Part shown: in pieces, positions 10,771 to 28,556 of the stretch
Numbering within the stretch: the first letter of the stretch is position 1
Layout: each line of letters starts with the position of its first letter
Source of the DNA: Halichondria panicea
Lineage: Eukaryota; Porifera; Demospongiae; Suberitida; Halichondriidae
Length of the DNA: 64,000 nt
NCBI RefSeq assembly: GCF_963675165.1
Contig: NC_087382.1
Span: 6,868,315 to 6,932,314 of the forward strand
Direction: 5' to 3'
Translations under genes and position numbers: made by a program
Notes under the pieces: generated by a model
Databases searched by the model: none
Seen by the model: only the letters and a program-made list of their open reading frames with translations
Told to the model about the DNA's origin: nothing

Positions 10771-11639
10771 AACTTTCTTTGATGTTGAAGTACATTTTTA
10801 CTTCAAGATTGAAGCCAGCTACTCGAGTGTTGTGTCAGCCTGTCAGTATACTGTTGAAGTTTATCTAAATTCACAATTCTGTTTCCTTCTAGACATTTGT
10901 GACATTTGTGACAGTGCCAATGAAAACGGACCTTAACGCGAAATTAAGGTAGACATGAAAAACATAGGCAAAAAAATTTTTTTTCCACAGGTGCTAACTT
11001 CAACCTTTCCTCTACCTACCTGTGAAAATTTGGGTCTCTACGAAGCTTCAGGTCAAGCGCCGACGTTGAAGAAACTCACCAAACGTTCATTTGTTACTAT
11101 GAAATTTACTGCCCTGGGAATTTCCCTATTATTGGTCATTATTTTTAACAAATTAAAGATGACAACTTGTACAAGACTATTTCATCAGCCCAGTACTTAC
11201 AATCATCAAGAGGAGCCAGGTATATTATAGCTCCACTTTTTAACAAACATAATTAACAGAAATAGATTAGAAAGAGCAGCTATCTAGCTAGCTAGCTTGG
11301 CGTAGATCCACTCTTGTTTCTTTAGATGTATGTATCCCGTGCCCATAAACACTCCATAACAACCTACAGATAAGTAGTAAGTTAAGATAGACACAATATC
11401 AATGTTCTAGCCAATAGACTAGTGTTCCTCCGACACTTACCACCACCTGGGGGATAAACAGTTTCCTGGGCCCTCCATGATGTGATCACCTATCCCATCA
11501 GGCCTGTTACTACTAAGCACAATGGCAGTGATACCAGTACTAAATTAAAGGAGGAAAGCTATGGGGCGCCGTTTGTCTCAAAACTCCTAGGAAATATGAC
11601 CAGTGTAAAATTTTGAGGTTATATATAATTATACTGACA

Positions 11640-12120
11640 GTCTACATATATAAATAGGTGGTGAAGTATATATACTGACAGTGTACATTTATAAGTAGGG
11701 GTGTAGTATATATAGAGATAGGCATTATATATACTGACCATCTACATTTATAAATACAGAGAGGCATTATATATACTGACGGTGTACACTTATGAATAGA
11801 GCATCAAATATAATACTGAGAATCAACATTTTAAATAGAGTGGTGTTATATATACCGATCAACTACATTTATATAAGTGTGCCACGCTTATAAACAGAGA
11901 GGTGACATATATATACCGACCTACTACATTTATATAACATATATATACCGACGGACTACATTTATATAAGTGTGCCACACTTATAAATAGAGAGGTGACA
12001 TATATATACCGACCTACTACATTTATATAAGTGTGCCACACTTATAAATAGAGAGGTGACATATATACACTGACCTACTACATTTATAAGTGTACCGGGC
12101 CACGCCGCTTATAACTCTGA
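11640..12120. repeat. Left subterminal minisatellite of outer transposon
   Basis: About six imperfect ~60-bp units containing TATATACCGACCTACTACAT and the perfect hairpin ATAAGTGTGCCACACTTAT. The reverse-complement array is at the other end (25320-26270). Units nearest the tip are more diverged. The hairpin in each unit would suit repeated protein binding, which is inference. The minus-strand cysteine/tyrosine-rich ORFs here are artefacts of the repeat. Confidence 0.85.
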
Positions 12121-12238
12121 CAGAGAGGGATCATTACCCATTCTATAAGTATAACATCACATGATTGTAGGCGTGCCATGTGCATATATAGTGAGAGCCA
12201 TATAGCCACTTGAAAAGAGACTTAGTTAGGTGAATCAG

Positions 12239-14913
12239 ATGGCCAACATATCTGTGAATGTTGGCACACTCTCCACTGCATTAGCTGCTGCACTACAGCA
12301 AGCTGTTGGTACCAATCAGCAAAGTGTAACACCTCGACCTCAGGCTCAAGCACAAGTACAGAGTCAGCCAGGACCCAGCCTGAGCAATAGTCAGGGACCA
12401 AGTACAAGTGCAAGTGTAGGGTGAGTGGCAGTTAGTTTAATATGTAGGTGGGAGCTAGCTATGGAATTCGGAAGAGTCAAAAACAGTACTGTTTTTTGTT
12501 TGTTTAGACATGCCTTGTCAGTGTTGCCTTCATTTCTGAAGAGAAGAAAGGGTAACTCTACCCTCCCGAGAAAGCGCAAAAAAACGTTGCAAACATGGGA
12601 CAGAGACATCGTTTGCCTCCCTAAAGTGAAATCAGCAGATATGCATATCGCCTACCCAAGGGGAAAATATCGTGAACAGCTAGGGAAGAATGGGTTGATT
12701 GGAAAGGTACGGCTCAACTCAAATATGAGCATGCAAGATGCAAGAAGTCGAGCGAAATTCGCTCTGTGTTTCAGCAGCCGATGAAGGATCAACGTGACTT
12801 TCCTTACATTTACTTACAGTCAACAGGTTGTGGAAGTCGCTCGCTAACCATCCCATCCTTGTCGGCATCGTTTGAATGGACAGTGCAGCAGGTAGTGAAG
12901 ATCGGTGGAACCAAAGGAAACACATATATAATGGCACAGACTGAGTTGTTTACACCATTTGAGGTGAGCTACATGTTACTGAGTGCTAATCAAAGTCTAG
13001 TGTAAACATTTCAACAGCATGTCATTACATTTTTATAACGTGTTACCATTTCACACAGAGTGATCATGAGGATGACGATCATTCAGATGCAGAAATATCT
13101 TCAGATGAAGCTGAAAAAGTTTTCTCAAAGAAAGCTTCCTCGAAGAAAGCTTCCTCAAAGAAAGTTGAAAACGAATCTCCTGCCGTTAGTACATCTTTGA
13201 GTTCTGCTGAAAGTAGTTACCAGTAAGTTATATGTGTATAATTATTTTGTCAATAAAATAATTTTTGCAATTAGGAATTATGTTGACGTTATTGACCTCA
13301 CCACTGATGAATTACCAAACATGGAAAGTGATGACTCTGAATTAGATGATCTTCCTGTTGTTCCCATTTCAATGGATTCTCGGGCCATTAACAAGTAAGG
13401 TTTATATGGGGTGATTCTCAGTGATTTATCAGTTGGTCCATAGGATGAAGAGAGCACCAGACATGGTGGTTGCCAAACATGCAATGATACAGCACCAGCG
13501 AAAGGTCATCCAAGCTAAAGATGAGGAAGATGAGGAAGATACGCAATCTGTGTACATACGACGAAAATTACTCTATTCTGATTCTGATGCCTTCAAAGCC
13601 TTTTCTCAGCCTTCTTTTAATGTCTCTAAAATGTTGAAGGTGACATTCATTGGAGAGGGAGCTGTGGATGACGGGGGACCACGCAGGGAGTTTTTTTCCA
13701 TCCTAATGAGAGACACATTTGCTAAATCTGGATTATTTTGTGGATCACCTGAAAATGTTCTTCCAATCTATAGTATTCAGGGTGTTGCCGACAATCACTT
13801 CTATATCATTGGGAAAATGATATCTACAAGCATTGTCCAAGGTGGTCAGCCACCTTTGTGCTTTTCTCGAGCAGCAGCAGATTTCATTGTGTTTGATAAA
13901 GTTATCAGCACACCTTGTTTAGAGGATATCCCTGATTACGAGATTCGTGAACATTTGAAAAGAGTAAGTGATATATTTAAAGGCTGACTCTAATTAATGC
14001 GCTCTCTAATTATAATGTGTAGTGCAATTTAGCAAACTTCCAAAGTTGTATTTGCACTCCAAAATAGAGTATTGAGTATTGTACAACAGCTTCATTGAAA
14101 GGGTCATTAGTGATTACTTACATTATTAGGAGTGTAGGGAACTTAGCATTAAAAATGGCACGAAAGGTTGGTCCAAACAAATATTAGGCCACACCCACTC
14201 CTGAACTATGTCAGAAGCGCCAAATATGTGAGTGTAACTGTATAATTTTTTCAGCTGCAGAAATGTGACACCACTGAAGAGTTACAAGAAATGCTTCAAT
14301 CAGAACATTTCGAGTTCATTTTTGAGTGTGGCTATTCGAAATTGGTATCTTCTGTTGATATCACCTGTAAAGAGGAAATAATTAAATGCATATGGCTGAG
14401 CTACAACAGCTACGAAAAGGTATTAGAGAAACGTTGCAGATGGAGCTCCCCATATGCATGTATCCAAACGAGGTGCATTCCTTGTTGGTGCCGTCGTCCT
14501 CACTGAAGATCACTACACATTTCTTTCTGGATGAAGTAATAATTGATTACTCCGATCATGGATCTAATAAGCGCACTTTTGAAGAAGCTGTCATTCTCCA
14601 TTGGTCAGATTACATCATTGATTTACCTGGTAAGTGTTACAAACTAGTCAAACGAGTTCATTTTTTATTTTCCAGGACGAAATATCACACTTCAAGACGT
14701 GCTAAGATTTATGACTGGATCGACGTGTTTACCAGCAGTTGGGTTGAGAATCCCCCGTCAATTTCTTTTACTGATGCTGACCAGCTGCCTACAGTTTCCA
14801 CCTGTTCTTTGACCTTAACGTTCCCACGATCATGTTCTAAAATGTCAACTGACAATTTCCAACAAATGATGGACCTGTGTATTCTAGGATCATGCGGATT
14901 TGGACAGGTTTAG
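12239..14913 (+). pseudogene. HECT-type E3 ubiquitin ligase of outer transposon, frameshifted
   Basis: Proposed exons are 12239-12420, 12508-12963, 13059-13222, 13275-13394, 13444-13963, from 14255, and a last exon from ~14676. The splice joins examined keep frame. Exon 1 (MANISVNVGTLSTALAAAL, Q/S-rich) lies in the terminal repeat. The middle is acidic and serine-rich. The HECT N-lobe starts at VTFIGEGAVDDGGPRREFF (13640-13700). The C-lobe ends with TVSTCSLTLTFP, which holds the catalytic cysteine that would carry the ubiquitin thioester, and finishes GFGQV. Frameshifts at ~12750, ~14385 and the C-run at ~14750 mean no full-length product. It converges on the integrase of the same element, with the inner transposon inserted 63 bp past its stop. 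Confidence 0.8.
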
Positions 14914-14991
14914 AACTTAATGACTTTTGAATTATTCATGCGGATTTAGAACTTGAGAATTATTCATGCTGATTTGTATGGCGGTAGATTA

Positions 14992-15395
14992 GTGTCAAAA
15001 TTATGAGGTGTTTTTTCAGCAAGGGGGTTATTCTACAGAGGGTGTCAAAATTATATGGGGTGTCTTTTCAGCAAGGGGGTTATTCTACAGAGGGTATCAA
15101 AATTATATGGGGTGTCTTTTCAGCAAGGGATTATTCTACAGAGGGTGTCAAAATTATATGGGTGTCTTTTTAGCAAAGGGTTATTCTACAGACAGTGTCA
15201 AAATTCAGTGTATGGGATGTCTACTCTGTGTGTGTCAAAATTATAATGGATTGTCTTTCCAGCAAGGGGGGTTATTCTACAGACTGTCAAAATCAGTTAT
15301 ATGGGGTGTTTCAGCAAGGGGGTTGTTCTACAGGTGTCTTTTCAGCAAGGGGGGTTATTCTACAGACAGTCAGGTGTAGAATTAAGAGGGGTATT
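14992..15395. repeat. Left subterminal tandem array of inner transposon
   Basis: About seven units of ~50 bp, consensus near TGTCTTTTCAGCAAGGGGGT then TATTCTACAGA, with TGTCAAAATTATATGGGG. Reading it yields repetitive ORFs in all frames (FQQGGYSTD-like) that I regard as artefacts. The inverted counterpart is at 21745-22205. Confidence 0.85.
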
Positions 15396-15515
15396 TTTCC
15401 AACAAGGTCGTTGACTGTTATTCTAGTGTCAAAAGCATGAGGAGAGTTAGTTGGAGCGTGGCCCAACTTGATGGAGGGTGTATTTTTCAGCAAGGGTCTG
15501 CCATGCATTGCATGC

Positions 15516-15547
15516 TAGCCTCGATTCCAGGCCTTGAATCGAGGCTA
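15516..15547. other. Hairpin between array and integrase gene
   Basis: TAGCCTCGATTC and GAATCGAGGCTA form a 12-bp perfect stem around CAGGCCTT. GCATTGC-type flanks extend the symmetry. It lies in the presumed 5' region of the inner integrase gene; a regulatory role is possible but unsupported. Confidence 0.6.
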
Positions 15548-15874
15548 ATGCATTGCTCATTCAGCCTCTTCAAAGCGGCCTGGATTCGAGGCTTTTAAAT
15601 TATGGGAACTGAGTAATTTTTGAGAGGGCGTGGTCTCAATTACTTTATTAATGATCAAGCATGAGTTGTGACTGGATTGTAGACAGCTTGGTAGCACTTA
15701 TCTCCGATATGAAGGAGGGAAGAGTAGTAACAAGAGATATAGTGGATGGCTACAAGTGGAGAATTGAACTTATGTGCTCAGATTTAATGGCAAAGGGCAA
15801 AGGAAGCTATTTCTGGCGAATTATGTACTTCCGAGTGTAGTACTCTTGATTTACTGAACAAGGCCTACAAGGAG

Positions 15875-17207
15875 ATGGATACATTGCTAAATAAGTTGTT
15901 AAGTAATGGAGGAGGTTCTAACGCACAATTTCAAGCACCTTTGATGTTGTCTGGTGTAGTTGGACGACCAGCGTATGTTATTCCTGAAGAGCAACTTCAA
16001 TGTTTAATTGAATCTCGTTTCACAGTTCCTCAAATCAGCAAACTATTAGGTGTATCTGTATCCACAGTTCGTCGACGTATGTCATCCCTAAATCTTTCCA
16101 TCCGCTGTACATATTCACAAATATCAGACGAAGAGTTGGACAGTGTTGTTGGAGGTGTACAACAACAGTACCCAAACTGGGGTAACCGACAGATGTACGG
16201 TTACCTTGTGTCACGTGGAATCAGAGTGCAAATGAATCGAGTTCGGGAATGTCAGAGAAGAATTGACCCACAAGGATGTGTCTTGAGAAGGCTGAGAAAC
16301 TTAAGGAGACGAGTGTATTCAGTTCAAGGTCCACAACATCTTTGGCATATAGACGGGCACCACAAGCTAATCAGGTATGGCACCATGTTTTTCATTATTA
16401 TGATATCAATGATTAATTAATTTAGGTGGAAGCTTGTGGTTCACGGTGCTATTGATGGGTACAGCAGATTAATTGTGTTTCTCAAATGTGCTGACAACAA
16501 CACTTCTGAAACTGTGCTGTCCAATTTCACAGATGCAGTTCAGTTGCATGGAGTGCCTAGCAGAGTACGCAGCGATAGAGGTGGCGAGAATGTACTTGTA
16601 CACGAGTACATGGTGGCACATCGTGGACCAAATAGAGCAAGCTTTATTGCAGGGCGAAGCGTACATAACCAGCGTATTGAACGGTTATGGCGTGATGTCT
16701 ACAGTGCTTGCATTGTTGGGTATTACTGTTTATTTTCACACATGGAGGACATAGGTATCTTAGATGTTGACAACTCTGTTCATCTATTCTGTTTGCATTA
16801 CGTATTTCTTTCAAGAATTAATCAGAGTCTACATGACTTCACAGCTGCTTGGAACAATCATCCTCTTTCATCAGTCAGAAATGCAAGCCCAAAGCAACTT
16901 TGGATAAGTGGATCACACCCCCAAGACATTGATGAACAGGTATGCAAATAACAGTTGTTGATTAATTATATCTCTGGTCTCTATTTAGATCCACAACAGC
17001 GACTACGGTATTGATTGGGATGGACCTCTTCCTGTTGGCAGTAACGAGAGCTCAATAGTTGTTGATCCACCACAACAGCCTCTTTGCTCTATGGAATATG
17101 AAGAATTATCTTCTGTTGTACACCCCCTTGCACAGAGTTATGACCATGGCATGGATTTCTATATGGACGCTGTTGAATACACCTACAGTAAAATTAACAG
17201 TTGCTAA
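15875..17207 (+). CDS. Integrase-type DDE transposase of inner transposon
   Basis: Exons 15875-16374, 16426-16939 and 16989-17207 join in frame across GT..AG introns; the stop is TAA. The N-terminal part has a helix-turn-helix ([20 protein letters not shown], residues ~46-65). The rve catalytic core starts at WHIDGHHKL, with first Asp in HIDG, second in SDRGGEN, and Glu in RIERLWRD, 34 residues after the second Asp. The protein would cut and rejoin element ends in the nucleus. The true start may be upstream: an open stretch from ATG 15661 (MSCDWIVDSLVAL) leads towards this frame, but a one-base shift near 15800 separates them. So either an unseen intron or an N-terminal frameshift exists. It converges on the HECT gene of the same element. 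Confidence 0.8.
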
Positions 17208-17365
17208 GATTTAATAATTATGTCACTTCTGTTTCCATAAATAATCTCATGAATAAGTAATTTTGTGTCCATAAATATCTCTTGAATTAGTATATACTCC
17301 AGGAGAGATGAAAACTCAAAACAAAAAAATAATGATGATTGTGAAGGGTATTCTTGAAATTAAAA

Positions 17366-20300
17366 TCATGCCAGTCCCATGCCATCGTTTCCACGCAGAG
17401 ACAGCATTAGTTTGCTCCTGAACACATCATAAGATGAATGTCTACACGGGAGACGAAGACGGAGACTGCACGTACTGGCAGTTGCTAGTTCAGCATCAGT
17501 GAAGGTCAATGTCGGTACAGGCTGGAAACCAAGTGGGGGCTCCCTGTCAGCTCCAGTGAAAAAGATGAGAACATCGTCAAGAGTCACTTTGTCCCCATTC
17601 TCTGTTGTTGATGTTCCATCTATAGTAAAATGAATACCTTTGCATGATAGTGATCGAATTAGGCATTACACTTATATTAATGTGCAACTACATAGGAAAA
17701 TGAATGTAGTAAAAAATGTACAATACAGAGGAGGAAAAACACAATTAACCTTATGCACTTAATTATGACTTTTTAATGAACACGCATTCCGCAGTCGCGG
17801 TTCAATTGCACTTTGCTTCTGCAGTTTAAGTGAAATCACAATAATCATGTGCTTTCATAAGAAACAGGTGAAGAGAATGATTTTGGTACAGCCATGAACC
17901 TAATCCTGCTGCAACCAGGAACAGATACAGCTAGTCAGGCTCAGTACAGTCGGACATACCAGTAACTTTTTTTTACAGTATCTATGGTAACGTGAAAAAA
18001 ACTTTAGGAATGTCACATGAATGATGACGCATGTCCAATCTCCTCCTCTGCCATTATACAGTAAATTCAAATAAGAATACATTGCATCAAGAGTTTACGA
18101 ACGTAGGCATATACTGTACATCAGATGTATGTGGAGAGTAACGTGACTTCCTGTATCTGTCACAAGCTTGGAATTTGCACACTGACCAATCCAAGTGTGG
18201 GTGATGTAATCTATCAACCCATCCAAGTGTGGGTGATGTAATCTACTTTCTTGATAGATTACATCACCCACACTTGGATTGGTCAGTGTGCAAATTCCAA
18301 GCTTGTGACAGATACAGGAAGTCACGTTACTCTCCGCATACATCTGATGTACAGTATGCCTACGTTCGATACTCTCTCTCTATCATAAACTCTTGATTGC
18401 ATGAAATTAATCATTAAAGTGAAACCTTTGATTATTCGGACACCTTGGTTCTGGATAATCGAATGGATAAACCACGCCTTGATCCCACATAATGGACAAA
18501 CAGCAGAGCCACATGGTTGCCAGCGCATGCGCAGAAGATAAGCAGGCCTGTCTCCATAGTAATGCGCATGTGCAATAAAAGGACAAGCCAAAAATAAAAT
18601 TGCCAAGCCGGATAATGGAGGTTCAGAATAATGGACGTTCTACTGTATTACATTTAGTTTCTTCGTGTCCAACTTCTTCTGCGTGTACATCATATATAAT
18701 GGGAATCACTAATAAATACCACAGTATGATATTCTTTGGCCTAGGTGAACACCAAAAAAGAACACTGCCTTATACATGTATGTCAAATTAACTAGTACCT
18801 TCACATTCTTCCAAAAAATCCATGAAGAAGATGTACGCAGCCTCTTCTTTGGCTTTTCTATTTGAATCAGTTAGTGAGAACACACACGGAAACTTCTTAA
18901 AGAAGTCTACAAAAACAATAACAATATGAATGCATGACATATAATATTAATTAACGCACCCTTTGACAATACGCTTGGTTGCTGACAGAACAAAGGCTGC
19001 ATCAAATCAGAGTAGTTTTGAACATACTTGAGGACTTCACAAGTGTGTAACCCCTCTGTGAATTGATCTAGTTCCGCTTTGATCTTAATCAAGGAATGGT
19101 AGTCTCTCAATGCGTTCTTGATCCCATCCTTGTCAGCCATGGAGGCAAGGCACAATGCCTTACTATAGCCGGTGTCGCACACGAGTCCAACTTTTTCGTC
19201 ATCTTCGAATATTAACCTCAGTTTTTCATCCGTATCTGCATCATTGATCAGAAGGGGTACACCACATTAAAAGCCATGCAGATATCTAGGGTGTATAATT
19301 ATTTGCTTTGTGCGTATATTTGCTAATAAATCACATGGTGTGAATGAGTGTACCACCAACTAGGGGGGTCATGCTCCCCCTGCTTGGGCAAATTTTTTTC
19401 ATCTTGGGATTGCCTTTGCAAATGTTATAATTTTTATTTGTCCATAATTATACTTAGTCTTACCGGAAATTACCCGCTACAAGGTCATTTTAAGGGGGGG
19501 GGGGGGGGGGGGGATTGGGCTAGGGGGCTCCCTCTCCTGTGTATCATAATGATGACTTACTTGACTTACTTCTCTCAAAAGGGTTCGGACCTGTTCATTT
19601 GGAACAGCTGTATCATCCCTTACTCCCAGGTAAGTCCCCGTGCAGATGTACCGGTACACTGAAGGGTGAAAAGCAGGTATTCCAGAACCCCCTTGTACAA
19701 TACTCATAGCGGTGATTTTGCCAATGTTCTTGAAGTCCTCATTCTGAACACAATTTGTTATTAAATGTATGCACACCCATACATAATGCGCATTTAATTT
19801 ACCTGCAGAGCAACAACATTCTTCAGCGGAAAACATTGGCCACTCTCATTGCTGGTGCAGTACTTTTCAGTTACCCCCTTTGCAAATAGACGATAGAATT
19901 CTCTCAGTGGCCCACCAGTGTCTACTGCTGCCTCACTCACAAAACTGACCTGTATAGTACCCATCCGTAATCAATGTACATTTATGATAATAACTTTCTT
20001 AAACTTACTCTGAGAAGATTGGACGTATTGAATCGTTTCTTCTTTGCTTCTCTGATCCCATCTTCCACTACAAAGCCACGTCGCACATCAATACTAGTAC
20101 GGGAAGCAACCTCCCAGTCCTCACTGTTGACATCAGGGATGTGAATACCACACTTCGCCCTCAAGGCCAACACAATATGGCTCAAGCAGTTCAGTTCTCT
20201 AAATAAGTATAGCATTATCTCACAGTACATTATCTCACAGTACTATACACACATAATCACAGCTGGTTATACCTTGGTTGACAAAAGTCGTCCATACTGT

Positions 20301-21627
20301 TTTTGACAGCAAGTAAGATATCATTTTCTAGGGTCAAGTCTACCAAGTGGGATGATTGAGTATGGTCTTGTACCTAAACATTTTTTGGGGATGTTATCCT
20401 CATGCTATAAATTGGAGCATTGCTTACTTGTACACCACTGTTGTTAGGAGTAATTGGGGAAAAAGCTGGCGGTAGTGGAGATTCTGGTGGTGAGCTCAGG
20501 TAACTAAATTCTTCTTCTTCAGAGAATGCTTGAGGAAGGGGAGAATCCAACCTTAGCGAACAAATTAAACATTAAGAACTTGATAAAATGAACTGCACCT
20601 TTTACAAGTATCGAGATGTTGTTTAAGTTGACACAATGGAATGCTTTGATCACATTTTAGGCATATTTCAGTCGGTGCAATTCCCTACAGAGCAGTACTC
20701 ACACGAAGCACTACCAACCAAATAAAACTTACCAGATCTTTATTCTCCAATACACGTTTCAAACATAATTTCTGCTGTAGAGGACGGATAAACACTTTAG
20801 CACTACCTACAACATTCTTTAGGTACTGAACAGTATAGCCTCCACTTTGCGGTGGAATTACCCCGAGCTGACGATTGTTGTTGGGTAAGGTGCGTAACAG
20901 TTCATACCCCCCTGCATTCACAAGCTTTGGATATGCATTAAGAAGTTCATCGTGGAACTCAAATGCCTCGCCATATTCAAATAGACAGATTTTCTTTGGT
21001 CCAAGCCCAGCATTGATGAGGTCTGCTTTTTCCATTGGAGTTGGAGGAATTGACTGATCCACATTTGCCAGACAAATAAATTCGTGCTCCCACATACTCA
21101 GCTTTACTTTTTTCGATTTTTTTTTACCTGTTCCTGTTTTTTGTCCATATTCTGACATCCACGGAGGACGGCGAGTAGGCAGTGATAGACCACGTCGGCT
21201 TGACATGAACTGTGGCACATTACAGGTACCAGAGCGAGAGCTTCCTGGAAGCTGCTGATCCTCTCGAGCTCTCGGCCGCGGAGGTTGCCGATCAGTACCA
21301 GAGCGAGAGCTTCCTGGAAGCTGCTGATCCTCTTGAGCTCTCGGCCGGGGTGGTTGCCGATCAGTAACATTTCCTGTATGCAGAACAATTATTTTTATAT
21401 CACTACTACTACTGTGCTTTCTTTAATGGAACCCTTCCCCCCCCACACTCGTACTCTCCTAGACTACTTTCACCTACTTTCCCTGACTCTACTTTCACCC
21501 ACTCTCCCTGACTCTTTTACCACTGACCCCCACTGTTCGAAAGCTTACTTGAGCTACTGCTTTGTGGGCTCATCATGGACAAAGCGTTCTCGAGGAGACT
21601 GCGAGCAGCTCTTACAGAATCGTCCAT
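17366..21627 (-). CDS. HECT-type E3 ubiquitin ligase of inner transposon
   Basis: Proposed exons on the minus strand are 21627-21549, 21373-20733, 20684-20599, 20551-20428, 20373-20273, 20198-~20012, ~19951-19804, ~19740-19580, ~19236-18961, ~18905-18810 and ~17625-17366. Domains in order are a proline/glutamine-rich repeat, a conserved block (LSMWEHEFICLANVDQ...GLGPKKICLFEYG), and a zinc-finger-like CLKCDQSIPLCQLKQHLDTC. The HECT domain then runs from RTSIDVRRGFVVEDG and VSFVSEAAVDTGGPLREFYR. The C-lobe has catalytic Cys in TASTCSLRLRLP and ends MGLA. The expected role is transfer of ubiquitin from an E2 to a substrate; the target is unknown. Most junctions keep frame. I could not resolve the frame across the ~19570/19236 junction. 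No other disabling change was seen. Confidence 0.75.
18085..18372. mobile_element. Foldback element in an intron of the inner HECT gene
   Basis: Arms of ~125 bp, starting GAGTTTACGAACGTAGGCAT-like at the left and ending with the complement near 18345-18370. Both arms contain CACAAGCTTGGAATTTGCAC and its reverse complement. The loop holds a direct repeat of ATCCAAGTGTGGGTGATGTA. It lies between the last two exons of the HECT gene, so splicing could remove it. Confidence 0.8.
19494..19513. other. Poly-G tract, 20 consecutive G
   Basis: Twenty G in a row on the plus strand, in an intron of the minus-strand HECT gene, where it reads as poly-C. It is prone to G-quadruplex formation and to sequencing error. 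Confidence 0.95.
21226..21363 (-). repeat. 69-bp coding tandem duplication in HECT exon 2
   Basis: Two 69-bp units with few differences, each encoding 23 residues (TDRQPPRPRAQEDQQLPG then SSRSG). The period is a multiple of three and keeps the reading frame. This is a proline-rich, probably disordered linker before the conserved WEHEF block. Confidence 0.85.
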
Positions 21628-21744
21628 CTCTTCTTCTTCACCACGTGGACTTTCATCTACATGTGTGACCTTTAACCCTGTGACCTTTAACCCTGAATAC
21701 CCTTTGCAGAAAATCCTTGCAGTAGTTTCTAAGTAGCACCCTGT

Positions 21745-22205
21745 CCTGGAAAAAGACACCCCTCATAATTTTAATACTGTAGAATATACCCCTTGCTGAA
21801 AAATTAAGACACCCCATATAGTTTTGACACTGTCTGTAGAATAATCCCTTGCTGAAAAGACACCTCATACAATTTTTTAACACTATACCCTGTGTGTAGA
21901 ATAACCCCCCTTGTTGAAAAGACAACCATATAATTTTGACACTGTCTGTAGAATAACCCCCTTGCTGAAAAGACACCCCATATAATTTTGACACTGTCTG
22001 TAGAATAACCCCCTTGCTGAAAAGACACCCATATAATTTTGACACTGTCTGTAGAATAACTCTCTTGCTGAAAAGACACCCATATAATTTTGACACTGTC
22101 TGTAGAATAACCCTCTTGCTGAAAAGACATCCCATATAATTTTGACACTGTCTGTAGAATAACCGTCTTGCTGAAAAGATACCCCCTCATAATTTGACAC
22201 TGTTG
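21745..22205. repeat. Right subterminal tandem array of inner transposon
   Basis: Eight to nine ~50-bp units, reverse complement of the left array: TGTAGAATAACCCCCTTGCT, then GAAAAGACACCCCATATAAT. It lies upstream of the HECT gene, so it may be part of its 5' region. Confidence 0.85.
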
Positions 22206-22304
22206 TACCGCCATAGATTTGGACAGTTCAGAATTGAATGTATTGTTACAATCGTTTCGTTAACTTCATGCAATTCTATTATTATCATTAATTAAACATA
22301 ATAA

Positions 22305-25179
22305 TTAAGTTCCACAGTCATCACAACCTACAAGTAGGTGGCTACCAATTAACTGAATAGCACTTGTATACAACTGTTTGCCATTGTCAGGGTTTTCTTC
22401 AAGTACATCAATTGATGACAGACTATGCATGAGTGCTTCGCATGGTGTGAACACATCAGAAGGTATATTAACGTGGTTATCCACCAGTGAAGTTAGGTAC
22501 GACGTAGCATCCAATGCCGCGTGTGTCACACTTCTCTCATCAGATTTGTGCAGCAACCCTTCTATGTATAGTTGATAAGGTGATCGGTTTCCTTCAGTTG
22601 AAAGTTTATGGTGATTCCAGCTTTCTCTGAACTCAAGTAAATTACGATTAATGCGTGGTAAAAAGATGAAGTGTAAACAGAACAGATCCACTTTATTCAA
22701 GGGGTTGAGCAATGCTTCCTGTTCTAAGCAACAAAACAAGTCACCAAACATACTCAAAACACAACGATGAACATCCCTCCACAACCTTTCAACTCGCTCA
22801 TTATGAACAGAACTACCAGTTATTACACACGAAGTATCGTTTCCATGAGACAGGATCACATATAGCCAAATGTCAATGTTTTCACCTCCGTGATCGGTCC
22901 GCACCTTTTCCGGTACACCAAAAGCTGCGACTCCTTCATTAAAAGATGCACATGCAGTAGCAGCTTGATTGTTAGTTGAGCATTTAACATAAGCAATTAA
23001 CCGTGAAAAGCCGTCCACCCCAGCGTGAACAACAAAACGCCATTTAATTAATTTATGATTACCATCGATATGCCAAATGGTATTTGGATAGGGAACAGAA
23101 TAAATTCGACGTTTTACGACACTTGATTGGCGAGACACAGTATTCTCATGGTCCACACGATGAATTGAACGTCTTAATCTTTCACGAGTTACCTTTATGT
23201 CTTTACTTGTTAGATGCCCTTGAATTAATACCTCTACCTCTCCATCATTCGGATGCTCACGTTTAATCCCAATGATCAAATTGTCCAAATCACTATCGGA
23301 AATCATACATTTGTCATCAGTAGGTACCCCAGCTTCTGTTAAGCGTCTATACAAGGTTGCTCTTGATATACCCAGTATCTCGGCTATCTTAGTCCAGGAA
23401 AAATTGAATCTCCGTAAAGTTTTAACTTCTTCCAAGTCAATCAATACTTTAGGCCTCCCTCTGTTAATGAAAAAACCACAGGCATTATTATGCATACTAG
23501 GTTTGTATTAAATATACAATGCAGAGGGTTTTGTTCAATTAATGAGGTCGTTACGTCGTTATTCATAGTGTAATTACATCACATACTATAATAGGTTTCT
23601 GGGTGGTACATTTAGGCCAAACCCCCAAGACTAAAACTAATTTTTTTTTTTTTTTTTATTTAAGAAATTTTTATGCAAAACCAAGGTGTGCATAAGGGTA
23701 GATCAGGTAGCTCAGATGGCTAGTGTGAAGACTTCCCCTGGACAACACAAAAACAGAGAAATAAAACAGGAGCTACGGCTAATTATAATAATTATTACAC
23801 AAAAAGCTACTGAGGTTCGATTTAAATGATGAATCAGAGGAGCTGTTGATAACTTCTGGTGGTAAAGAATTCCATTTTGGTATTACATCCAGAAAAAAGG
23901 AATGTTTGTGGGATGAGGTGCCCACATGTGGTATAAAGAGTATTTGGCTGTGCGGATGACGGGGGGAAGGGGATGGGTGGGGTGAGAAGACAGAGGGAGG
24001 AATACAGGATTTGTTGTTGATGATTTTGAAGCATACTTTAAGTTTTTGGATATTCCTGCGGTCTTTAAGAGATTTGAGTTGGAGTTTGTTAAGTAGAGAA
24101 GTATAGTCAGATTTCCATTCTTTGGTTATGATTTTGCAGGCAAATGATTGGGTGTTCTCCAGTTTCTTGGTGAGTGTTGATTGATGGGGGTCCCATACTG
24201 CGGCGCAGTATTCAAGTTTGGGTAGTACAGTGCTCCTGTAAATTGTATGCTTTGATTGCTGTGATGCATCTTTTAACTTCCTGTGGAGCAATCCCAGTTG
24301 TTGTTTGGATGTCCTCACAGTGTTGGTAATGTGCTCAGACCAGGACAGATTCTTAGAGATGGTGACGCCGAGGTACTTGAAACATTCCACAATGGGGATT
24401 TGCTGGTTTGAAATAGAGAGGGTGAGTGGGATCGCATTCATAGATCTTGTGATGGGTAGAACATTGGTTTTTTTGTTGTTTAGAAGGAGACCATGTTGTA
24501 TAGTCCAGTTGTGAACTGCATTAATATCCTGCTGGAGCTGAGTGAGATCGTTATCTGAAATTACTGGCCTGTAAAGGAGGATGTCATCAGCATATAGGAT
24601 TAGCTTGGTTCCGGGGCAGAGCTTTATTTCATTCAGCGAGTCCATGAATATAATGAACAGTAGGGGTCCCAGAATAGAGCCTTGAGGGACTCCAGACGTT
24701 ACACGGCACGGTGTTGAGGATGCACCTTCCAGGACGACTCTCTGACTTCTGTTTGATAGGTAGTCTGAGAGCCAAGTTAGCAGTGGACCCGAGATACCAT
24801 GTTTTGAGAGTGACTTAATGATCTGATTGTGGGGGACAGAGTCGAATGCTTTACGAATATCAAAGAAAACTGCTCCTACTTGTCTGTTTTTTGATAGTAA
24901 TTGGTGCCAGTCGTTTGTGACAGTCAGTAGTGCATCCTGAGTTTCTTACCCATGCACGTGCCACCTTAGCTACACTGCCACTCACCCTACACTTCCACTT
25001 GTACTTGCACTTGTACTTGGTCCCTGACTATTGCTCAGGCTGGGTCCTGGCTGACTCTGTACTTGTGCTTGAGCCTGAGGTCGAGGTGTTACACTCTGCT
25101 GATTGGTACCAACAGCTTGCTGTAGTGCAGCAGCTAATGCAGTGGAGAGTGTGCCAACATTCACAGATATGTTGGCCAT
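22305..25179 (-). CDS. Integrase-type DDE transposase of outer transposon
   Basis: The main exon (23460-22305) is open throughout. It has a helix-turn-helix (SWTKIAEILGISRATLYRRL) and an rve core with Asp in WHIDGNHKL, Asp in RTDHGGEN and Glu in RVERLWRD, 34 residues after the second Asp. The C-terminal tail is ~130 residues. A CAG acceptor at 23461 lets it join in frame to the exon at 25179-24986 in the right terminal repeat (MANISVN... to SGSVG). The junction reads SVG-GRPKV. The intron would be ~1.5 kb and carries the LINE at 23641-24940. Start choice: the ATG at 25179 matches the ATG at 12239 in the left repeat. Catalytic residues are intact, so this copy may still make transposase. Confidence 0.82.
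23641..24940 (-). mobile_element. 5'-truncated non-LTR retrotransposon (LINE) with RT fragment
   Basis: Minus strand. An open frame from 24939 to 23779 (~386 residues) starts within the fingers/palm of a reverse transcriptase. RT motif A is FDIRKAFDSVPH, motif B is SGVPQGSILGPLLF and motif C is YADDILLY. A long C-terminal region after it includes YLGVTISKNLSW and LPKLEYCAAVWDP. A ~120-bp 3' untranslated stretch leads to a poly-A tail, seen as 18 T at 23641-23658. The endonuclease and ORF1 are missing. It resembles CR1/Jockey-group proteins, clade not decided. No stop lies within the retained frame, so insertion was recent. It lies in the intron of the outer integrase gene, same strand. Confidence 0.85.
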
Positions 25180-25319
25180 CTGATTCACCTAACTAAGTCT
25201 CTTTTCAAGTGGCTATATGGCTCTCACTATGCACATGGCACGCCTACAATCACGTGATGTTATACTTATAGAATGGGTAATGATCCCTCTCTGTCAGAGT
25301 TATAAGCGGCGTGGCCCGG

Positions 25320-26270
25320 TACACTTATAAATGTAGTAGGTCAGTGTATATAATATGTCACCTCTCTATTTATAAGTGTGGCACACTTATATAAATGTAG
25401 TCCGTCGGTATATATATGTCACCTCTCTATTTATAAGTGTGGTACACTTATATAAATGTAGTTCGTCGGTATATATATGTGTCACCTCTCTGTTTATAAG
25501 CGTGGCACACTTATATAAATGTAGTAGGTCGGTATATATATGTTACCTCACTGTTTATAAGTGTGTGGTAAACTTATATAAATGTAGTCCGTCGGTATAT
25601 ATATGTCACCTCTCTGTTTATTTTATAAGCGTGGCACACTTATATAAATGTAGTCCGTCGGTATATATATGTCACCTCTCTGTTTATAAGCGTGGCACAC
25701 TTATATAAATGTAGTCCGTCGGTATATATATGTCACCTCTCTGTTTATAAGCGTGGCACACTTATATAAATGTAGTAGGTCGGTATATATAATAATGTTA
25801 CCTCACTGTTTATAAGTGTGGTAAACATATATAAATGTAGTCCGTCGGTAATATATGTCACCTCTCTGTTTATAAGCGTGGCACACTTATATAAATGTAG
25901 TCCGTCGGTATATATATGTCACCTCTCTATGTCACCTCTCTGTGGCACACTTATATAAATGTAGTAGGTCGGTATATATATGTCACCTCTCTGTTTATAA
26001 GCGTGGCACACTTATATAAATGTAGTTGATCGGTATATATAACACCACTCTATTTAAAATGTTGATTCTCAGATTATATTTGATGCTCTATTTATAAGTG
26101 TACACCGTCAGTATATATAATGCCTCTCTGTATTTATAAATGTAGATGGTCAGTATATATAATGCCTATCTAATTATACTACACCCCTACTTATAAATGT
26201 ACACTGTCAGTATATATACTTCACCACCTATTTATATATGTAGACTGTCAGTATAATTATATATAACCTC
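25320..26270. repeat. Right subterminal minisatellite of outer transposon
   Basis: About twelve regular ~60-bp units (GTCGGTATATATATGTCACC, then hairpin-type AAGTGTGGCACACTT), followed by diverged units at the tip matching the left end. The array is about twice as long as the left one, so arm lengths differ by unit number. Variants GTAGTCCGTC and GTAGTAGGTC alternate. Confidence 0.85.
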
Positions 26271-26821
26271 AAAATTTTACACTGGTCATATTTCCTAGGA
26301 GTTTTGAGACAAACGGCGCCCCATAGAAAGCGTCTTATAAGGCAGTTGGATCAAGCCTTAGATCGATACAGACTACCTATAATAGATCACGACAGAGACA
26401 CTTTCTGTAGGCTCCATACAAGTGAGGGATCTTTTATAAGACTGATACATTACACAGTACAAATTACACAGTACAAGCTTATAATAAGACATGAGAGCTT
26501 ACAATTTGAGCGACGGGAGTCTTTGTCTCTTTATTTCTTCGAAGATCCTTGCCAAGCAATCCAGCTACATAGCTAGTCCTAGATGTCTTCTCTAGAACAT
26601 TGCTTTATGAGTATACGGAAGTGAACTTCAATTATTCAACGTTTGAGCATCATTTACTCAAGAGGGCGTCCCTTCGTAGCGTTCCCTCGAACATATCTCC
26701 GGAAAGAAAGTAGCTCGATCTTGGTATCATTTTGAAGCTTACAGGACGCTCTATCCGATTCAACAATAAAAACTGATTCGAAAATGTCCGCGTTAAGGTC
26801 CGTTTTCATTGGCACTGTCAC

Positions 26822-27839: not shown

Positions 27840-28556
27840 GTACTTGAACTGGTGAACACTGATCCGTTGTCTGACACGAGCAATTCAGGTATGCCGACCT
27901 GAGTTCAGTGAGGGTAGTAGCCGTGGTAGCGTGCCGTTCACCTCCATCCATGGGTGTCTACTACGACCAAGAACATGTGTCTGAGAAGAGGTAGTCGATG
28001 TGCAGCCTAGCCCAGGGGTGTTCTGGCCATTCCCAGGAGCTTGACTTTCGTGCTTTGTCCATTCTGGGCCACCATACAAAACATCGGGCGAGACTCTTCA
28101 TTTTCGAGATGCCCGGGTGTCCTTCGTGAAGTTCCTCGAGAATTCTCTCCCTTCCTGGAGGTGGGATAACCACGCGACTTCCCCACATGACACAGCCATC
28201 GTGGAGGCTAAGTTGAGTGTGTCGTTGCTGGTAGGGTTTGAGTTCTGCATCGGTGTTGTCTCTCCAGCCAGAAGCAAGCATACGGCGAACTCGAGAGAGC
28301 TTCTCTGTCCAGGATGTGATTTCTTTTGCCTGATAGCCAGGATATTCTCTCCAGGGCACATTCTGGGAGGTTCTGGGAGGGGGAGACGACTGAAGACATC
28401 AGCGGTCTGGTCCTGGCTTGCTTGTGGTCAGACAAAATGGTAAACTGGTGGAGACAAAAATAATAGCTAACCCCAGCTGGGAGTATTTCTTTTCAGCCGG
28501 ACCAAGTGAGCGGGATATGAAGGCCACAGGTTGCCGTCAGGTAAAGCTCCAACTCC
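27840..28556 (-). pseudogene. Ty3/Gypsy pol fragment (RNase H to integrase), broken
   Basis: Minus strand. VAFISRSLGPAEKKYSQLG at ~28540-28480 is the end of a Gypsy RNase H. Next, 28280-28080 holds the integrase zinc-binding region, LHDGCVMWGSRVVIPPP and ERILEELHEGHPGISKMKSL followed by WWPRMD. Then comes a start of the integrase core (LHIDY, MFLVVVDTH, IPELLVSDNGSVFTS) in other frames with gaps. Reverse transcriptase, LTRs and the rest of the core were not found. This is a relic with multiple frameshifts. Confidence 0.75.

Follow-up and report, generated by a model that had tools for sequence, protein, structure and literature searches.

A 64,000-nucleotide stretch of the genome of the sponge Halichondria panicea (contig NC_087382.1, hereafter the window) contains two transposons, one nested in the other, each of which carries a gene for a DDE transposase and a gene for a HECT-type ubiquitin ligase between its own inverted repeats. 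The same pair of genes recurs throughout the genome, and the elements most likely belong to the IS3EU/GingerRoot superfamily, as their termini and target site duplications (TSDs) fit and their strong PF24764 matches are consistent with it. We lean towards the view that they are two-gene cut-and-paste transposons of this superfamily whose active ligase would tag host proteins near the element, aiding transposition or escape from silencing.

Both ends were read in four elements, namely the outer and inner elements of the window and two further ones, L041 and L039; for another, L040, a likely left end alone was read. Exact 6-bp TSDs were recognized by eye in all four (GAAAGC for the outer element, GATTTG for the inner, CTGGTA for L041 and CTTTTT for L039), each has TA..TA ends (TATGG..CCATA in the outer, inner and L039 elements, TATGA..TCATA in L041), and both genes are located inside the inverted repeats in every case. 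The outer termini read TATGGGGCGCC...GGCGCCCCATA, the right end being the reverse complement of the left, and the inner termini read TATGGCGG...CCGCCATA. Each inverted repeat is a tandem array, whose main unit is 61 bp long in the outer element (arms of 228 nt at 100% and 158 nt at 99%, among others) and 52 bp in the inner one (an arm of 104 nt at 94%, among others). Without its nested insert the outer element measures about 7.5 kb; the inner element has a second genomic copy, L047, at G000:C11. The analysis bears out the coordinates, inverted repeats, TAT termini and 6-bp duplications given in the original prediction, which had also spoken of two independent elements: both are real, but one sits inside the other (Table 1).

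The HECT gene of the outer element is on the plus strand and its transposase on the minus strand, the inner element has its transposase on the plus and its HECT gene on the minus strand, and both pairs converge. This gene order had been proposed as a feature of the elements; it holds for both of them in the window but is not universal, as one family described below is tandem in all of its copies found. The outer transposase has all of D, D and E, with 34 residues separating the second D from the E. The C-lobe cysteine that had been reported for both ligase copies was read by eye in each, within the motif STC. The outer HECT C-lobe falls marginally short of the Pfam cut-off (E 4.1e-5, 23.8 bits vs 23.9), its frame shifts within the C-lobe, where the profile hits a pair of overlapping frames, and a second frame shift was seen by eye near the N-terminus; this copy is likely inactive.

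An intact relative of the outer element, L041, spans 6,018 bp (G000:C7, 867-6884), and its gene models are open throughout with GT/AG splice sites, encoding a ligase of 687 aa in seven exons and a transposase of 428 aa in two. The ligase possesses a complete HECT domain (Pfam profile positions 2-304 of 306, E 1.1e-13) and no further domain at Pfam E up to 0.1; among ligases of known structure, Rsp5 is its best sequence match (E 8.1e-7), and the two align at the catalytic cysteine and its TC motif. The L041 transposase matches PF24764 at E 9.9e-79, and its core is remotely related to HTLV-2 integrase (E 1.9e-4). Helix-turn-helix models and a DDE core, without an integrase zinc-finger model, were recovered for the window transposases (Pfam E up to 1) and for L041 (E up to 0.1), and no HHCC zinc motif was found ahead of the DDE core in the same scans. 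The C-lobe cysteine is retained in all seven aligned C-lobes, although similarity between certain pairs is as low as 17-25%. We propose that the ligase is catalytically active.

Pairing and joint divergence of the two genes

The genome searched comprises 131 Mb in 39 contigs. A six-frame search with the transposase gave at least 156 matches (150 of 234 candidates were scored), of which the best-scoring 82 (E 9.9e-36 or better) formed the census set. The HECT set combined 95 Pfam matches with 66 matches from protein queries, which recovered diverged copies; second pieces of one gene were merged by eye and three weaker matches were omitted. Around each transposase the census covered 6 kb on the upstream and 9 kb on the downstream side. 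A HECT match lies no more than 9 kb downstream of 63 of the 82 transposases, and all 63 partners are downstream. Fifty-eight of these pairs are convergent and five are on the same strand, including the outer transposase of the window (its own HECT gene is convergent, but that of the nested element lies nearer) and four copies of one tandem-order family. When points were placed at random in 200 trials (13 of the 39 contigs, 9 kb either side), on average 1.2 and at most 7 of 82 had a HECT match, which rules out chance proximity. A later query with another ligase, P0123, detected a convergent HECT gene 564-645 bases from the transposase for three of the other 19 (at C8:4028896, C5:5062425 and C1:5088008), bringing the total to 66 of 82; the random control covers the 63-pair census that preceded these additions.

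In the reverse census, 60 of 67 matches from transposon-type HECT queries are no more than 10 kb from a transposase; a wider version (84 of 93) is partly circular, as it includes 26 matches taken from the Pfam list, 24 of which had been chosen for their proximity to transposases. Among 30 transposase loci examined, a HECT C-lobe is inside the 3.5-kb locus in 25 and at its edge in a 26th, L009. Seventy of the 95 Pfam HECT matches are not near any of the 82 transposases; most of these are host-gene-like, and a few, next to shorter fragments of a transposase, belong to transposon copies. Two findings would have spoken against the original prediction, namely copies that mostly lack their partner and a HECT gene outside the terminal repeats; the genome instead holds mostly paired copies, and the HECT gene is inside the repeats of the bounded elements.

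Two families differ in their layout (Table 1). In family E, the transposase and HECT gene are in tandem on the same strand in four out of four copies found. Family D copies are near-palindromic, a transposase and a HECT C-lobe facing each other and being followed by their mirror image, and each copy counts as two transposase matches. With an N-lobe query, matches were confined to the second half in the family D copies at C13, C8, C16 and C1, and neither half matched in that at C9; the first-half HECT looks like a C-lobe fragment because the query missed the first halves.

Codon-level comparison of the outer element with L041 indicates that the HECT gene is constrained as strongly as the transposase. 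Their HECT N-lobes share 56% amino acid identity (95/169), with codon-position identities of 0.65, 0.77 and 0.33, a nonsynonymous divergence (dN) of 0.36 and a saturated synonymous divergence (dS), and their transposases share 54.5% (205/376), with codon-position identities of 0.62, 0.72 and 0.37 and a dN of 0.43. Pairwise identities of transposase and HECT N-lobe are correlated over nine families (r 0.71, reached in 0 of 5000 permutations), seven from the H. panicea genome and two from contigs elsewhere, and the HECT gene was retained while the transposases fell to 42-63% identity. Since both genes diverged together across very different members, the ligase is probably part of how the elements survive in the host. 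The census, the codon-position pattern and the N-lobe co-divergence agree with the earlier view that the architecture is conserved and is not a chance capture.

Possible roles of the ligase

In the mechanism that we propose, the first gene encodes the transposase, with a helix-turn-helix region and an integrase-type DDE core in which 34 or 36 residues lie between the second D and the E; this protein probably binds the tandem units of the inverted repeats, excises the element and reintegrates it, duplicating 6 bp of the target. The second gene encodes the HECT-type ligase, comprising a predicted ubiquitin-like N-terminus, a basic stretch resembling a nuclear localization signal, SUMO- or ubiquitin-binding-like motifs and the HECT domain with its cysteine, and each of the two genes runs towards the interior from its own inverted repeat. 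The N-terminal domain is predicted to be ubiquitin-like by structure modelling, and the candidate, weak SUMO-interaction-like motifs are VIDLT or LIDLT with an acidic flank in the outer and L041 ligases, LVDLT in the inner ligase and LISISSESD in family B. Through such reader-like motifs the ligase may be recruited to SUMO- or ubiquitin-marked proteins at the element, for example in silencing or repair complexes, and by tagging them may help transposition or allow silencing to be escaped. SUMO marks help silence transposons in animals. The ligase most likely helps the element, either via host proteins at the element or via the transposase, and we would favour the route via host proteins in view of the nuclear-looking basic stretch and the reader-like motifs. 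The suggestion in the original prediction that the ligase modifies the transposase, repair factors or silencing factors is plausible.

Several observations weigh against this interpretation. No HECT partner was detected for 16 of the 82 transposases, and inclusion of 32 loci from weaker transposase matches gives 76 of 114 with a HECT match within 10 kb; therefore, some lineages or fragments lack HECT. One of these 16 unpaired cases, L030/L044 (G000:C6:2972264-2979206), where two convergent transposases flank repeat arrays, was inspected and no HECT gene was seen; it is possibly a lineage without the ligase. The unpaired transposases, this one among them, argue that some lineages can dispense with HECT. 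The family D piece has no HECT domain by Pfam, its assignment coming from weak matches to solved ligases (E 0.006) and the C-lobe alignment. The SUMO- and ubiquitin-binding motifs are short and weak: the DL-type motif, counted over 75,568 residues translated from the frames of the window, occurs five times vs twice in one shuffle and is not significant alone, and the UIM (E 0.13) and zf_UBZ (E 0.0021) matches are each under the cut-off. A structure model of the HECT domain from four sequences was unreliable, with a mean predicted local distance difference test (pLDDT) score of 50, and was not used. Co-divergence is weaker for the C-lobe (r 0.62, reached in 220 of 5000 permutations, seven families), in a test that omits the outer element with its shifted frame and X640814, whose ligase fragment has no C-lobe. 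Finally, the shared first exon considered next shows only a mild codon-position bias (0.63, 0.63, 0.53).

This exon bears on the best-placed alternative, that the ligase regulates its own element by ubiquitinating the transposase, thus limiting copy number or disassembling the complex after insertion. Each inverted repeat of the outer element and of L041 has at its inner end a short exon, predicted to be coding, with splice donors in the same phase, such that the two proteins of this lineage are predicted to begin with a nearly identical short peptide; in L041 the ligase starts MAEGSISVNVGVLSSALAVAIQQA and the transposase MAEGVNVGVLSSALAVSIQQA. A 36-base stretch of the exon has 15 genomic occurrences, all 15 without a mismatch, as compared with none for the backward control pattern. 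They form seven inverted pairs and one single copy, and the pairs sit at or around transposases of the outer/L041 family, six of them 3-10 kb apart and one 20.6 kb apart. The outer and L041 exons have 18 of 30 residues in common, and a similar start was noticed by eye in two of twelve transposases from elsewhere, P0047 and P0051. Such an exon would put one tag on both proteins, through which they might meet, and a disassembly factor would have a precedent by analogy in bacteriophage Mu, whose transposition complex is actively disassembled by a host unfoldase. However, the exon common to both genes was seen only in the outer/L041 lineage, no comparable one being visible by eye in families A, B or the inner element, and contact between ligase and transposase is purely hypothetical. 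We regard self-regulation as doubtful, albeit worth keeping in mind.

The ligase might instead serve as an adaptor without catalysis, its HECT fold acting only as a ubiquitin- or E2-binding scaffold. HECT N-lobes do bind E2 enzymes, but a scaffold does not readily account for a cysteine kept in every aligned C-lobe, even between the most dissimilar pairs, and we consider this option unlikely. A HECT gene captured once and carried as a passenger, without a role in transposition, would be in line with the ability of transposons to acquire host genes and with the transposases that have no detected partner. Against it stand a constraint on HECT equal to that on the transposase, the persistence of the pair during the divergence of the transposases and the cysteine kept in all seven aligned C-lobes; the codon-position pattern and co-divergence disfavour a neutral passenger, which seems quite improbable to us. 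That the HECT genes are host genes lying near transposons by accident, as the NCBI label 'G2/M phase-specific E3 ubiquitin-protein ligase-like' of one copy could imply, can be practically dismissed, given the random expectation, and is ruled out for the four bounded elements, where the HECT gene is inside the repeats.

Returning to the tagging of host proteins, an active ligase would equip a selfish element to rewrite host protein marks by itself, and the proteins it targets would point to host factors holding transposons in check in early-branching animals. The transposase-HECT pair offers a testable link of transposition with ubiquitin or SUMO signalling.

Known relatives and occurrence in other genomes

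In published descriptions, IS3EU elements have TA..TA termini and usually a 6-bp TSD (PMC10045372), fungal members end in TAYGG..CCRTA, and those bearing TET/JBP carry an alpha-kinase gene opposite the transposase (PMC12730594). The sponge elements resemble IS3EU/GingerRoot in their TA..TA termini, 6-bp TSD and DDE transposase without the HHCC zinc finger (PMC10045372), and the lack of this zinc-binding N-terminal domain distinguishes their transposases from Ginger1 and the LTR-integrase lineage. An IS3EU-like affiliation had been guessed at; termini, TSD length and transposase all fit it, the comparison being with published descriptions and not with Repbase entries. Similar to the fungal TET-positive elements, a second gene for a protein-modifying enzyme opposes the transposase, whereas the enzymes differ, being an alpha-kinase and a TET/JBP dioxygenase in fungal hosts and a HECT ligase in the sponge (PMC12730594). 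The Kolobok superfamily also has lineages that bear different accessory enzymes, although these are nucleases, a RecQ helicase or KolX, and the target sites are TTAA (PMC9587614). With HECT E3 ligases such as Rsp5/NEDD4, AREL1, E6AP and HUWE1, the sponge ligases share the N- and C-lobe and the catalytic cysteine, but they are only distantly similar, have a predicted ubiquitin-like N-terminal domain and are borne by transposons.

The word HECT is absent from the main text of PMC10045372 and PMC12730594, no paper was found that mentions both IS3EU and HECT, and literature searches, whose reach did not extend to Repbase entries, gave no published description of a transposase-HECT pair. This suggests that HECT-bearing IS3EU-type elements are an apparently undescribed form of a known superfamily, priority being subject to Repbase listings. 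A more general scheme, which we put forward only tentatively, is that a further gene, encoding a protein-modifying enzyme and facing the transposase, is usual in IS3EU-type transposons, the enzyme being a HECT ligase in animals and an alpha-kinase in fungi. On this scheme the animal ligase would be SUMO- or ubiquitin-directed and would take apart the silencing or repair complexes of the host at the element; in one lineage the inverted-repeat exon would give it the same tag as the transposase.

Of 7997 candidate proteins scored, 2211 matched the transposase at E 1e-20 or better, which makes this a large family, and no relatives were found in the viral or prokaryotic genome contigs scanned. Protein searches with the ligase gave six distinct proteins in all. 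Two of them may be paired with transposases, P0123 with P0048 (contigs of 6,014 bases each) and P0124 with P0012 (contigs of 640,814 bases each), a shared contig being deduced in both cases from equal size, which is the sole link for the cross-species pairing because the viral and prokaryotic scans gave no relatives. The best stretches of the H. panicea genome are 65%, 62% and 63% identical to P0123, P0124 and P0012, respectively, and these proteins therefore come from elsewhere, suggesting that the transposase-HECT pair is present in two further genomes.

Among annotated proteins, P0001 from H. panicea, the one with the NCBI label quoted above, is a copy of the L041 ligase (99% identical over 57%) and belongs to a cluster of 30 member sequences. 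An uncharacterized protein from the clownfish Amphiprion ocellaris, P0002, is 27% identical over 52%; it has a C-terminal HECT domain and, at 686 aa, a length like that of the L041 ligase, and it is known from the protein alone. Annotations such as the G2/M-type label may in some cases hide transposon genes, and gene-family expansions could be overcounted as a result. Independently, unclassified repeats in Cottus fish are reported to have blastx matches to G2E3 (PMC5638112), which hints in the same direction.

Coordinates and side features

Coordinates of the features described are collected in Table 1, where pTM stands for the predicted template modelling score.

Table 1. Features of the outer and inner transposons (window positions) and copies of families E and D (G000 positions)
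Feature	Position	Strand	Remarks
Outer transposon, holds the inner one	11560..26325	.	TATGG...CCATA termini, GAAAGC on both sides
Outer TSD GAAAGC	left copy 11554..11559, right copy 26326-26331	.	read directly
Outer left inverted repeat	11560..12415	+	tandem units of about 41-61 bp; predicted coding exon at inner end
Outer right inverted repeat	25003..26325	-	61-bp unit x about 11; ends in same exon as left repeat
Outer HECT exon 1, predicted, in left inverted repeat	12239..12420	+	phase-2 donor
Exon 1 copy in right inverted repeat, upstream of outer transposase	24986..25179	-	same phase; donor by eye
Outer HECT later exons	12425..14913	+	N-terminal domain, VIDLT motif near 13300, N-lobe 13415-13987, C-lobe 14386-14913
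Outer DDE transposase main exon	22305..23507	-	400 open codons; PF24764 E 1.8e-76
Reverse transcriptase fragment between outer transposase exons	23779..24945	-	PF00078 E 8.5e-28
Inner transposon, inserted in the outer one	14977..22215	.	GATTTG TSD at both flanks
Inner left inverted repeat	14977..15380, inner limit approximate	+	52-bp units
Inner right inverted repeat	21753..22215, inner limit approximate	-	52-bp units
Inner DDE transposase	15788..17207	+	introns, one near 16374-16426; PF24764 E 6.7e-70 for 16421-16951 (second exon)
Inner HECT gene, several exons	17366..21627	-	predicted start near 21627; PF00632 E 3.2e-8
Inner HECT C-lobe	17369-17665	-	with catalytic cysteine
Inner LVDLT / ubiquitin-interaction-like motif exon	20260..20373	-	directly before HECT N-lobe; by eye, without Pfam match
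Inner HECT zinc-finger-like exon	20568..20684	-	zf_UBZ E 0.0021, 18.1 bits (cut-off 25.6, not reached)
Inner HECT protein N-terminal domain	20688..21158	-	ubiquitin-like fold predicted: AlphaFold2 mean pLDDT 78, pTM 0.67
Family E copies	G000: C4:2654326-2658053, C4:3499349-3503075, C15:5971502-5975228, C7:4194514-4198147		
Family D copies	G000:C9:2874335-2881420 (L042, L038), C13:4273596-4281265, C8:780886-796887, C16:4429680-4446657, C1:8835049-8843312		

Within the region of the inner HECT gene there is a further inverted repeat of 107 nt with a 33-nt loop, 99% complementary, at window positions 18111-18357. An Integrase H2C2 zinc-binding domain (E 1e-9) at window positions 27961-28398 is probably a remnant of a long terminal repeat (LTR) retrotransposon.

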